Below, in pieces: positions 28,580 to 38,336 of a DNA stretch of 64,000 nucleotides. The translations under genes and the position numbers were made by a program. The stretch is from Halorussus marinus. GTDB lineage: Archaea; Halobacteriota; Halobacteria; Halobacteriales; Haladaptataceae. The stretch is taken from assembly GCF_004765795.1 (NCBI RefSeq), contig NZ_SBIV01000001.1, forward strand, positions 310,001-374,000. The letters are read 5' to 3'. Positions within the stretch are counted from its first letter, which is position 1, and each line of letters starts with the position of its first letter. A model generated the notes under the pieces. It saw nothing but the letters and a program-made list of their open reading frames with translations. It had not been told where the DNA came from and did not search any database.

Positions 28580-28630
28580 ATGCGAAAGTATTATGGGTCG
28601 CCTGACCCATTCTCCGAACGTCTTAGGTGA
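28580..28630 (+). other. Mini-ORF before sufC
   Basis: A 16-residue frame (MRKYYGSPDPFSERLR) ending with TGA at 28628-28630, seven bases before the sufC ATG. It is about 34 bp after a TATA box. A hairpin-forming repeat (28593-28599 with 28604-28610) and the iron-box palindrome lie inside or at its end. Confidence 0.45.
28593..28610 (+). repeat. Inverted repeat in the suf leader
   Basis: ATGGGTC (28593-28599) and GACCCAT (28604-28610) are perfect reverse complements with a 4-base loop. The element lies about 13 bp upstream of the TTAG-N6-CTAA palindrome in the untranslated leader of sufC and could form an RNA hairpin. Confidence 0.55.
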
Positions 28631-28636
28631 ACCTAA
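28623..28636 (+). promoter_or_regulatory. TTAG-N6-CTAA palindrome before sufC (DtxR-type box)
   Basis: TTAGGTGAACCTAA is a perfect 6-bp inverted repeat with a 2-base centre. It matches the half-site of DtxR/IdeR iron boxes (TTAGG...CCTAA) known from bacteria. It sits two bases before the sufC ATG, downstream of the TATA box, so a bound regulator would block elongation or translation start. The same TTAG-N6-CTAA layout occurs at 38135-38148. Confidence 0.65.
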
Positions 28637-32327: not shown

Positions 32328-32815
32328 GCGTCGGCAACCGCGTCTCGAACGACCACCAGCTCGCTCGCCTGCTCCAGATCGGCGTGGTTCTGGAGGAAGT
32401 CGTCGAGGTGCGGGCGGCGCGTCACTACGAGACGCTGTCGGCCGACGAGCGCGACGCGGACGTCGAAACCCTGCTGGCCGACGCCCGGGAGGAGTCGGCC
32501 GACCACCGCGAGCGCCTCGAAGCCCTGATCGACCGGCTCGACGCCGATCCGGTGCCCTTAGCGGAGGTCGAGGCGCTGGTCGAGGCCCAGTACGCCCAGA
32601 CGCGACCGGAGGACTTCGACGGCGTCCTCTACGATCAGCTCAACGGCGAGGAGACCGCGTACAAGTTCTACGACGACCTGATCGAAGCGATCGAAGCCAG
32701 CGAGGCCTCGTTCGCGCTCGACCGCGAGGAACTGCTCGCCACGCTGAAGGAGATCCGGGCGGAAGAGGCCGAAGGCGTCGAGGAAGTGACCGAATTTATG
32801 GAGGACCGAGCATGA
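32324..32815 (+). CDS. Ferritin-like protein of the suf region
   Basis: A 163-residue four-helix bundle protein starting MSVGNRVSNDHQLARLLQIG. Glu/His residues (EEVVEVRAARHYE, EESADHRE, QLNGEETAYKFYDD) are spaced as in ferritin-like proteins, so it may bind iron. It lies after sufBCD and its stop overlaps the ATG of a SirR/DtxR regulator (ATGA), pairing iron handling with regulation. A GTG three codons upstream is an alternative; the 32324 GTG is chosen because of the overlap with the mini-ORF and the family N-terminus. Confidence 0.8.
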   Translation: MSVGNRVSNDHQLARLLQIGVVLEEVVEVRAARHYETLSADERDADVETLLADAREESADHRERLEALIDRLDADPVPLAEVEALVEAQYAQTRPEDFDGVLYDQLNGEETAYKFYDDLIEAIEASEASFALDREELLATLKEIRAEEAEGVEEVTEFMEDRA

Positions 32816-33240
32816 ACACGGCAGATCAGTATCTCAAAGCGATCTACCTCGTCCAGCGAATGGAAAACGGCCCGGCGTCGACCGGCGCGCTGGCCGACCG
32901 CCTCGACGTGAGCCCCGCCAGCGTCAACGAGATGATCGGCAAGCTCCAAGATCGCGGGCTCGCCGACCACGAGAAGTACAAAGGCGTCAGCCTCACCGAC
33001 GAGGGGATCGAACACGCCCGCGAGGCGCTCCAGACCTACTGCATCATCGAGCGGTTCCTCCACAACGTCCTCGAAGTCGAGGAGTTCCCGAGCGAGGCCA
33101 AGGCCCTCGAGAGCGTCATCGACGAGACGGTCGCCGAGCGACTCGACACCATCATCGACCGTGAGCCCCAGTGTCCCGACTGCTTCGATCCGAAGGCGGA
33201 CATGTGCGCCGAACTCGTCCCGGAGGGCGAGGCGGACTGA
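32812..33240 (+). CDS. sirR: SirR/DtxR-family metal-dependent regulator
   Basis: A 142-residue DtxR/MntR-type repressor. The N-terminal winged helix (SPASVNEMIGKLQDRGLADHEKYKGVSLTDEG) is followed by a dimerisation/metal-binding domain (ILHHRVIERFL-like region AREALQTYCIIERFLHNVLEVEE) and a Cys-rich end (C-P-D-C-F-D and a later Cys). No SH3 domain is present. It overlaps the ferritin-like gene (ATGA), so the two are co-expressed. It is a candidate reader of the TTAG-N6-CTAA sites, though the second DtxR gene is another. Confidence 0.85.
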   Translation: MNTADQYLKAIYLVQRMENGPASTGALADRLDVSPASVNEMIGKLQDRGLADHEKYKGVSLTDEGIEHAREALQTYCIIERFLHNVLEVEEFPSEAKALESVIDETVAERLDTIIDREPQCPDCFDPKADMCAELVPEGEAD

Positions 33241-35974: not shown

Positions 35975-36628
35975 CTACGTCGCGATCCCGACCGCCTCCG
36001 AGAGGAACGAGAGCCCCGCGAGCGCCAGCACCGCGGCGCTCGCGTAGGCGACCACGGGCGCGAGCGCGTCCACCCGACGGCCAGCCGCGACGAGCGCGGC
36101 GGGGAAGCCGGTGATCCAGACCGCGATGCCCGCGAAGAACCCGACGACGATCACCGGGCTCCCGGTCGCGACGGTGAGCCCGCCGAGCGCGTCGGTCGAG
36201 ACGGTCCCGGGATCGAGCAGGCTCACGCCCGCGGTCAGCCACCACAGGATCTGGTAGGGGTTGGTGAGCGCGAGCACGAACGCCTTCTGGAACCCCTTGC
36301 TATCGTCGGCCACGTCCGAGGGGTCGCCCGTGAAGGCGTCGCTGGCGTCGCTGGCCGCGCCGTACGCGAAGTAAAGCATCAGGAGGCCGCCCGCGGCGAA
36401 GAGCGCGCCCTTGACGACCGGCACGTCCCGGACCACCGCGACGACCCCGAGCAGTGCCAGCATCAAAAAGCAGGCGTCGGCGGACATCGCGCCGAGTCCG
36501 GCTCGGAACCCCGAGCGCCACCCGCGAAGGACGCTCTCCTCGGCGATGATCGCGTTCATCGGGCCGGGCGGGGCCGCCAGCGAGAGGCCGAGCGCGACCC
36601 CTGCCAGCGCCGAGACCAGCGGTTGCAC
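35975..36628 (-). CDS. LysE-family exporter
   Basis: A 217-residue membrane protein with about six hydrophobic helices and the LysE/RhtB pattern LSLAAPPGPMNAIIAEESVLRGWRSGF near its start. The family exports amino acids or cations. It starts GTG 36628. It lies 68 bp downstream of the GDT1-type gene on the same strand; LysE and GDT1 belong to the same LysE superfamily of exporters, so a shared role in cation export is possible. Confidence 0.85.
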   Translation of the reverse strand: MQPLVSALAGVALGLSLAAPPGPMNAIIAEESVLRGWRSGFRAGLGAMSADACFLMLALLGVVAVVRDVPVVKGALFAAGGLLMLYFAYGAASDASDAFTGDPSDVADDSKGFQKAFVLALTNPYQILWWLTAGVSLLDPGTVSTDALGGLTVATGSPVIVVGFFAGIAVWITGFPAALVAAGRRVDALAPVVAYASAAVLALAGLSFLSEAVGIAT

Positions 36629-36696: not shown

Positions 36697-37401
36697 TCAG
36701 ACCGCCGCGAGGACCGCGGTCGAGACCCCGCCGACGATCTGCTCCCAGACCGAGAAGCCGGTCACCAGCGCGAGTGCGGTGTCGGCCGCGAAGAACGCGA
36801 ACAGCGCGGCGGCGAAAAAGTGCGCCTTCCGGGCGTCGAACCGACCGGAGAACCGGTGGAAGAAGTAGGCGTTCGCGAGGCTCACCGGGATGATGGCGGC
36901 CATCTCGCCGACCCAGATTGCGGGGGTCGCGCCGAACCGGGCGGCCAGCCCGATCGTCACCAGTTGGGTCTTGTCGCCGAACTCGCCGGCGGCCATCAGC
37001 AGGAAGATCGGGACGAAGCCGCCGAACGACGACGAGAGGTCCCGGCCGAAGACGGTCGGGAGGTCGACGTCGGGCGAGAGCGTCGCGACCCCGCCGTCGG
37101 ATTCGAGCCCGCCGGTGGCGTCGCGGGCGGGCGCCGACCGCCACAGCAGGACCGCGAACGCGAAAAAGAGGACCGCGGTGAACGCATCGAGGACGTTCGG
37201 CGGGAGCGCGTTCTTGAGCGCCTGTCCGAACAGGATCTCTAGCGCGGTCCACCCCGCGAACGCGGCGCCGGCGGCGCTCACGACGACGATCGGCCGGAAC
37301 CGGGTCGAGAGCCCGGCGATGATGAACTGGACTTTCTCGCCGGGCAACACCGCCAACTGGGCGACCGCCGCCACGATCGCGATTTCGAGCCAGCCGGTCA
37401 C
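36697..37401 (-). CDS. GDT1/TMEM165-family cation exporter
   Basis: A 234-residue membrane protein of the UPF0016 (GDT1) family, thought to export Mn2+ or Ca2+. The second signature EFGDKTQ is clear. The first half, where the family normally has E-x-G-D-[KR]-[ST], reads LPGEKVQ, so one metal-binding motif is degenerate. Its start overlaps the stop of the upstream DtxR gene by 4 bases, giving an Mn/Fe-sensing regulator and its likely target as one unit. Confidence 0.85.
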   Translation of the reverse strand: MTGWLEIAIVAAVAQLAVLPGEKVQFIIAGLSTRFRPIVVVSAAGAAFAGWTALEILFGQALKNALPPNVLDAFTAVLFFAFAVLLWRSAPARDATGGLESDGGVATLSPDVDLPTVFGRDLSSSFGGFVPIFLLMAAGEFGDKTQLVTIGLAARFGATPAIWVGEMAAIIPVSLANAYFFHRFSGRFDARKAHFFAAALFAFFAADTALALVTGFSVWEQIVGGVSTAVLAAV

Positions 37402-38120
37402 GCGCCGCCCACCCCGGATTCGGGAGTCGCGGTCTCGGAGTCACCGCTCCGGACTCGGATCGACGCCGCGACCGACTCGGGGAGGCTCTGCTCGCGTCGG
37501 TCGTCGGGGGCGGCCTCGCCGCCGCGGATTCGAACGGTGACCATCCCGAACGGCGCGACGTCGACGACCTCCAGCCGGGTGCCGGGCGCCACGCCCGCCT
37601 CCGAGAGGTATCGGAGCTCCTCGTCGTCGCGGTCGCTCACCCGGGCGACGACGACAGTCTCGCCCTCGCCGTGGTCGCTCAGGGGCGTGGTGTCGTCGTC
37701 CTCGATCGGGGCGAGGTCGGCGTTCGGGATCGGATCGCCGTGCGGGTCGACTTCGGGATCGCCGAGCGCCTCGGCGACCCGGCGCTCGAACTCCTCGCTG
37801 ATGTGGTGTTCGAGCCGGTCGGCCTCGTCGTGGACCTCGCTCCACGCGTAGTCGAGGTGTTCGTTCAGGTACGCCTCCAGCAGTCGGTGGTGGCGCAACA
37901 CCTCCAGCGCGACCGTCTCGCCCTCCGGGGTGAGCTCGACGCCCTTGTACTTCTCGCGCTCGACGAGTTCGCGCTCTTCGAGCTTCTCGACCATGCTCGT
38001 GACCGTGGGCGGGGTCACGTCGAGGTACTCCGCGATGGCGGAGGTGGCCACCGGGTCGCCGTCCTCGGTCTGGAGCGTGTAGATCGCCTTCAGATAGTCC
38101 TCCATCACGTCGCTCAACAT
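37398..38120 (-). CDS. DtxR/MntR-family regulator with FeoA-like domain
   Basis: A 240-residue metal-dependent repressor: winged helix (VTPPTVTSMVEKLEERELVEREKYKGVELTPEG, about 30-65), metal/dimer domain (about 66-130 with YLNEHLDYAWSEVHDEADRLEHHI) and a C-terminal SH3/FeoA-like domain (about 150-225). It overlaps the GDT1 exporter gene. Its promoter has a TATA box at 38151-38158 and a TTAG-N6-CTAA palindrome between TATA and start site, the classical place for autoregulation. Confidence 0.88.
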   Translation of the reverse strand: MLSDVMEDYLKAIYTLQTEDGDPVATSAIAEYLDVTPPTVTSMVEKLEERELVEREKYKGVELTPEGETVALEVLRHHRLLEAYLNEHLDYAWSEVHDEADRLEHHISEEFERRVAEALGDPEVDPHGDPIPNADLAPIEDDDTTPLSDHGEGETVVVARVSDRDDEELRYLSEAGVAPGTRLEVVDVAPFGMVTVRIRGGEAAPDDRREQSLPESVAASIRVRSGDSETATPESGVGGA

Positions 38121-38134
38121 CTTCGTGGGTCGTA

Positions 38135-38148
38135 TTAGGCTCGTCTAA
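38135..38148 (-). promoter_or_regulatory. TTAG-N6-CTAA palindrome in the DtxR promoter
   Basis: Read on either strand the site is TTAG-N6-CTAA, with the same spacing as the box before sufC. It lies between the TATA box (38151-38158) and the start codon (38118-38120), near the expected transcription start, so binding would block transcription of the DtxR-GDT1 operon. Confidence 0.65.
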
Positions 38149-38150
38149 AG

Positions 38151-38158
38151 TATAAATT
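38151..38158 (-). promoter_or_regulatory. TATA box of the DtxR-GDT1 operon
   Basis: On the minus strand the box is AATTTATA, about 34 bp before the ATG at 38120. Confidence 0.5.
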
Positions 38159-38336
38159 TGTCTGTCCGTCACTTCGCGTTCGGTGTGGGCGAACTCAGGC
38201 GGTCGGTCGGCCGGGACGACGCCCCGACGGGTCGACCGGTAGCCGGCGACCTGCGAGTCGTGCGATTCGGCGGGCCGGGTCTGTCGGGACCCGTAGACGG
38301 CGTATAACTAACGGTCCGGCCGACGTCGGTGGGGGT

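Follow-up and report, generated by a model that had tools for sequence, protein, structure and literature searches.

The 64-kb window (the whole stretch of DNA that was analyzed) contains a palindrome in the promoter of a DtxR-family regulator gene, which lies in one operon with a gene for a GDT1 transporter. The features relevant here are as follows.

28623 to 28636, + strand: sufC palindrome, TTAGGTGAACCTAA, of the form TTAGG-N4-CCTAA (iron type, a separate class)
32812 to 33240, + strand: other DtxR-like protein, TroR-like by position, downstream of sufCBD and without canonical ligands
35975 to 36628, - strand: LysE-type translocator (PF01810)
36697 to 37401, - strand: GDT1 (UPF0016) transporter (PF01169), in one operon with the regulator gene, with which it shares 4 bases
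37398 to 38120, - strand: DtxR-family regulator, SirR/MntR-like, with the Pfam N-terminal DNA-binding, metal-binding/dimerization, and FeoA domains
38135 to 38148, - strand: operator palindrome, TTAGGCTCGTCTAA on the + strand and TTAGACGAGCCTAA in gene sense
38150 to 38159, - strand: TATA-like box, AAATTTATAC in gene sense, the 5' neighbor of the operator

The operator lies 1 base 3' of the TATA-like box and 14 bases upstream of the ATG of the DtxR gene (38120), confirming the first-pass annotation, which had placed a TTAG-N6-CTAA palindrome between the TATA box and the DtxR start. Its count of two such palindromes in 64 kb was also correct: the window contains exactly two, at 28623 and 38135, compared to a mean of 0.01 in shuffled windows, and none of 100 shuffles gave two. 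The linkage of the regulator and GDT1 genes in an operon recurs in many genomes, and the gene for the LysE-type translocator may be third in this operon.

The regulator was found in 114 of the 118 genomes of the order, and conservation of the palindrome was assessed in a set of 150 non-redundant orthologous promoters of its gene. The motif TTAGAYNNRTCTAA was present exactly in 47 of these promoters, with at most one mismatch in 80, and with at most two mismatches in 95, compared to 0.0, 0.04, and 0.61 in shuffled promoters at the same three thresholds. The operator of the matching promoters always started at -21 to -29 relative to the ATG, so that a palindrome conserved at a fixed promoter position was found in 95 of 150 orthologues, and no operator match was found in control segments of the same loci (-180 to -121 upstream and a coding segment). 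When these 95 promoters were aligned, A+T content peaked at -11 to -4 from the operator start. In the remaining 55 promoters, for example those of Halorubrum, no operator was recognizable. Position 5 was A in 0.89 and position 10 was T in 0.84 of the orthologous promoters, the two columns that hold G and C in the iron type, and the iron-type site TTAGG-N4-CCTAA was exact in none of the 150 regulator promoters and present with one mismatch in 4. This DNA switch is genuine and conserved, and its occurrence is not due to chance. Of the promoters with GDT1 nearby, 64 of 66 had an operator, versus 31 of 84 of those without it, a comparison that ignores kinship and in which some flanks were short; because the operator is this frequent where GDT1 is nearby, control of GDT1 probably belongs to its purpose, and we set aside autoregulation as the sole purpose.

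The window copy itself has one mismatch to TTAGAY-N2-RTCTAA, the C at position 10, and likewise one mismatch to TTAGG-N4-CCTAA, its left half-site TTAGAC being of the Mn type and its right half-site GCCTAA being the same as the iron-type half. It was assigned to the TTAGAY-N2-RTCTAA class because of the related sites in other genomes. Halorussus amylolyticus, which is closely related to the window genome, has TTAGACGGCTCTAA at the equivalent promoter place (L270).

Across 59 haloarchaeal genomes, TTAGAY-N2-RTCTAA was found at 56 exact sites, compared to 8 for the reversed control pattern. Thirty-nine of the 56 lay directly before genes of four families: the regulator (dtxR2; 15 sites), mntA (15 sites), ArsP_2 (6 sites), and GDT1 (3 sites, counting GDT1 genes apart from the regulator). 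This tally was made by coordinates, and it is not inflated, with one regulator site (G029) counted among the others. The other 17 sites comprised 6 before two-domain multicopper oxidases, 2 before DoxX, 2 just 3' of the regulator gene, and 7 unassigned sites. The presence of the motif at Mn importer genes was borne out by mntA, 28 of 30 promoters of which carried TTAG-N6-CTAA, and in the window genome a site of the same kind as that at 38135, TTAGACTAGTCTAA, precedes a ZnuA/MntA-type ABC importer operon (C3:195902). GDT1 genes that lie away from the regulator often have their own copy of the operator. The conserved block and this regulon together support the earlier view that an operator of the DtxR kind stands in the DtxR-GDT1 promoter.

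Placement of the operator within the promoter varied with the gene family. It directly follows the TATA box in the promoters of the regulator, stand-alone GDT1, and multicopper oxidase genes, lies approximately 20 bases further downstream of the TATA box at ArsP_2, and is upstream of the BRE/TATA element in many mntA promoters. By eye, approximately half of the mntA promoters L131 to L144 also have an extra half-site, TTAGA, beside the BRE and 22 bases after the operator start. ArsP_2 proteins (PF11449) are annotated as arsenic or heavy-metal exporters, and the Mn-type operator upstream of their genes (L220, L222, L226, L229, L234, and L237) suggests an Mn role for the family in haloarchaea. 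The two-domain multicopper oxidases with this operator upstream (L223, L225, L233, L235, L238, and L239) are possible Mn oxidases. Across the 118 genomes, mntA orthologues rarely co-occur with ArsP_2, which was present in 4 of the 30 genomes with mntA versus 41 of the other 88 (Fisher P of 0.001, kinship ignored).

The genome-wide search that the first-pass annotation had proposed was run, and TTAG-N6-CTAA sites were found to adjoin metal genes across the genome. In the whole genome (3.76 Mb) there were 25 sites versus 17 for the reversed pattern, a count that is weak when taken alone; the telling figure is the ratio of 19 exact to 10 one-mismatch sites for TTAGG-N4-CCTAA, whereas approximately 30 one-mismatch sites per exact site would be expected by chance. 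Sites of this iron type precede the genes for three siderophore-type solute-binding proteins (PF01497), ABC and FecCD components, an SBP_bac_8 operon, sufC, and others. The sufC site ends 1 base ahead of the sufC start codon, which places it 3' of where transcription presumably starts. Among 30 sufC promoters, an exact iron-type site was found in 4 and a near-exact site in 1 more, all within its own family. Two genes for DUF7552 proteins (L020:4204-4650 and L025:3147-4007) have iron-type sites 1 to 3 bases before their starts, and their products are possibly iron-related proteins. The iron-type and Mn-type operators of haloarchaea form distinct classes, judging from their sequences and from the different gene families that lie downstream of them.

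The closest relatives of the regulator in the PDB are 5zr4, 8pvt, SloR, and IdeR. In the alignment, the regulator has D8 at the position of IdeR Met10 and D101 at that of IdeR Cys102, followed by E104 and H105; D and E occupy those two positions in the aligned 5zr4, 8pvt, SloR, and ScaR. The protein thus carries ligands of the Mn type, which are D at IdeR Met10, D or E at IdeR Cys102, and a conserved E and H. Its best NCBIfam model was MntR (NF047407), at 219.5 bits, below the cut-off of 350; since no archaeal model was among the NCBIfam hits, this failure concerns the name and not the mode of action. Like bacterial MntR, an Mn-sensing DtxR protein that controls Mn transport genes, the regulator has D at the IdeR Met10 position, but it is larger, has a FeoA domain, and is associated with an archaeal TATA promoter and the half-site TTAGAC. 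The 38135 site shares the outer TTAG...CTAA frame of the DtxR/IdeR iron box (TTAGG...CCTAA), which the iron-type sites of the genome, such as that of sufC, fit well, but its fifth base in gene sense is A, and the regulator has neither the Met nor the Cys ligand of IdeR.

Which of the two DtxR-like proteins in the window would read the palindrome had been left open. The protein encoded at 32812 has Q, K, and S at the aligned ligand positions, whereas the Mn-type ligands are found in the 37398-38120 product, which is therefore the likeliest binder, and from these sequences the palindrome is likely read by the latter and not by the former. The 32812 protein was considered less likely both for its ligand positions and because the Mn-type motif goes along with dtxR2 and Mn transporters. 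There are three clear DtxR proteins in the genome, the third encoded at C3:321024. Both of the other DtxR-like proteins (32812-33240, and L036 at C3:321024) have cysteine-rich C-terminal tails, CPDCFDPKADMC and CDGQCNAPRDEYAAC, as possible binding sites for iron or a cluster. The three DtxR proteins of Haloferax are named Idr, SirR, and TroR (PMC11349517), and the three proteins here may be matched to these by analogy.

The site with its conservation, constant placement, and regulon, together with the Mn-type ligands of the regulator, leads us to infer the binding, the metal, and the direction of control: the 38135 palindrome is quite probably a SirR/MntR operator to which the operon's own regulator binds, with autorepression of the regulator-GDT1 operon. 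The Mn2+-loaded regulator dimer would bind TTAGAY-N2-RTCTAA immediately 3' of the TATA box and stop RNA polymerase from being recruited or from initiating, and the same regulator would act on the mntA-type importer at C3:195902. Observations that weigh against this reading include the 55 promoters without a recognizable operator, the score of the regulator below the MntR cut-off, and the mismatch in the window copy. DtxR-family regulons in Archaea have reportedly been predicted by comparative genomics by Leyn and Rodionov (J Bacteriol, 2015). A review of GDT1 proteins (PMC7380456) refers to that study for four UPF0016 genes in halobacteria that are controlled by Mn. Publications on Halobacterium describe SirR as an Mn(II)-dependent autorepressor (PMC3600143) and report that deletion of sirR raised zurM, zurA, and ycdH expression in the presence of Mn (PMC1779511). 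Haloarchaeal SirR (Halobacterium NRC-1 SirR and Haloferax volcanii HVO_0819) is likewise of the DtxR family, and its autorepression by Mn and its repression of an Mn/Fe ABC importer, as reported there (PMC3600143 and PMC1779511), match the operators found at the regulator and mntA; this likeness is drawn from published descriptions of the two proteins. One of these papers (PMC1779511) assigns VNG0535C, a Halobacterium membrane protein of unknown function, to the expression cluster of zurM, zurA, and ycdH; going by its locus number, our guess is that VNG0535C is the GDT1 gene.

The first-pass annotation had read the two palindromes as the same layout and as one common operator for iron-sulfur assembly and GDT1. 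The first of these claims holds for the outer TTAG-N6-CTAA frame and fails at the inner bases, where the motif differs. A single DtxR operator that serves the suf and DtxR-GDT1 operons, with both sites read by one protein, is very improbable despite the identical frame and the single mismatch of the 38135 site to TTAGG-N4-CCTAA, given the prevailing A and T at positions 5 and 10 of the orthologous promoters, the near absence there of iron-type sites, the limitation of the sufC site to its own family, and the different gene families that follow the two types of site. We therefore rejected an Fe/Mn operator common to sufC, whose site is of the iron type, and the 38135 site, which belongs with the orthologous regulator promoters to the Mn class. 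Since the right half of the 38135 site is the iron-type half, an iron regulator could cross-bind there, and the palindrome might then be a hybrid that the Mn regulator and an Idr- or TroR-like iron regulator both recognize, with Fe-Mn cross-talk at the GDT1 operon as the result. The Mn-type left half, the TTAGACGTGCCTAA shared by a relative (L047), and the three DtxR proteins of the genome accord with this arrangement, but at the equivalent place the site is purely of the Mn type in most relatives and a single base change may represent drift, and we regard such a hybrid as unlikely.

The direction of control can also be read differently. Bacterial MntR activates its efflux genes, and a position downstream of the TATA box is usual for archaeal repressors. 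It would be odd for an Mn-exporting GDT1 to be repressed by the very ion that it exports, which is a puzzle for the autorepression model. Induction of the GDT1 operon by the Mn-loaded regulator is what would be expected of an Mn exporter, and published work reports that the UPF0016 members MneA and SynPAM71 export Mn (PMC7380456) and that certain DtxR proteins act in a dual role (PMC1779511). Such activation is nevertheless quite unlikely, with the operator in the repressor position and Halobacterium SirR described as an autorepressor in the work cited above (PMC3600143). A further, doubtful possibility is that haloarchaeal GDT1 and ArsP_2 are switched off by Mn as Mn importers or as parts of a novel Mn-sparing cycle. 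The Mn-type operator of both lies in the repressor position and is the same as that of the Mn importer. The GDT1 protein has the motif E-x-G-D-(K/R)-(S/T), of which members of the family carry one or two copies: in the window gene and its relatives, the second repeat is EFGDKT in 71 of 71, and the first repeat is altered to LPGEKV or close to it in 63 of 71 and is ..GDKG in 8 of 71. This altered motif and the rarity of ArsP_2 with mntA are compatible with such a switch.

An Mn-responsive SirR is already known from haloarchaea, and the 38135 palindrome is probably a further case of this kind. The split between iron and Mn operators, the ArsP_2 and multicopper oxidase targets, and the direction of GDT1 control may go beyond what is known, and a presumed Mn exporter with its operator in the repressor position is new or worth testing. 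One base per half-site, TTAGG for iron and TTAGA for manganese, tells these look-alike haloarchaeal operators apart, and the Fe and Mn regulons can therefore be read from sequence. The operators also tie GDT1 and ArsP_2, both poorly understood transporters, and the multicopper oxidases to Mn control, and the operator described here bears on the direction in which archaeal GDT1 moves Mn.
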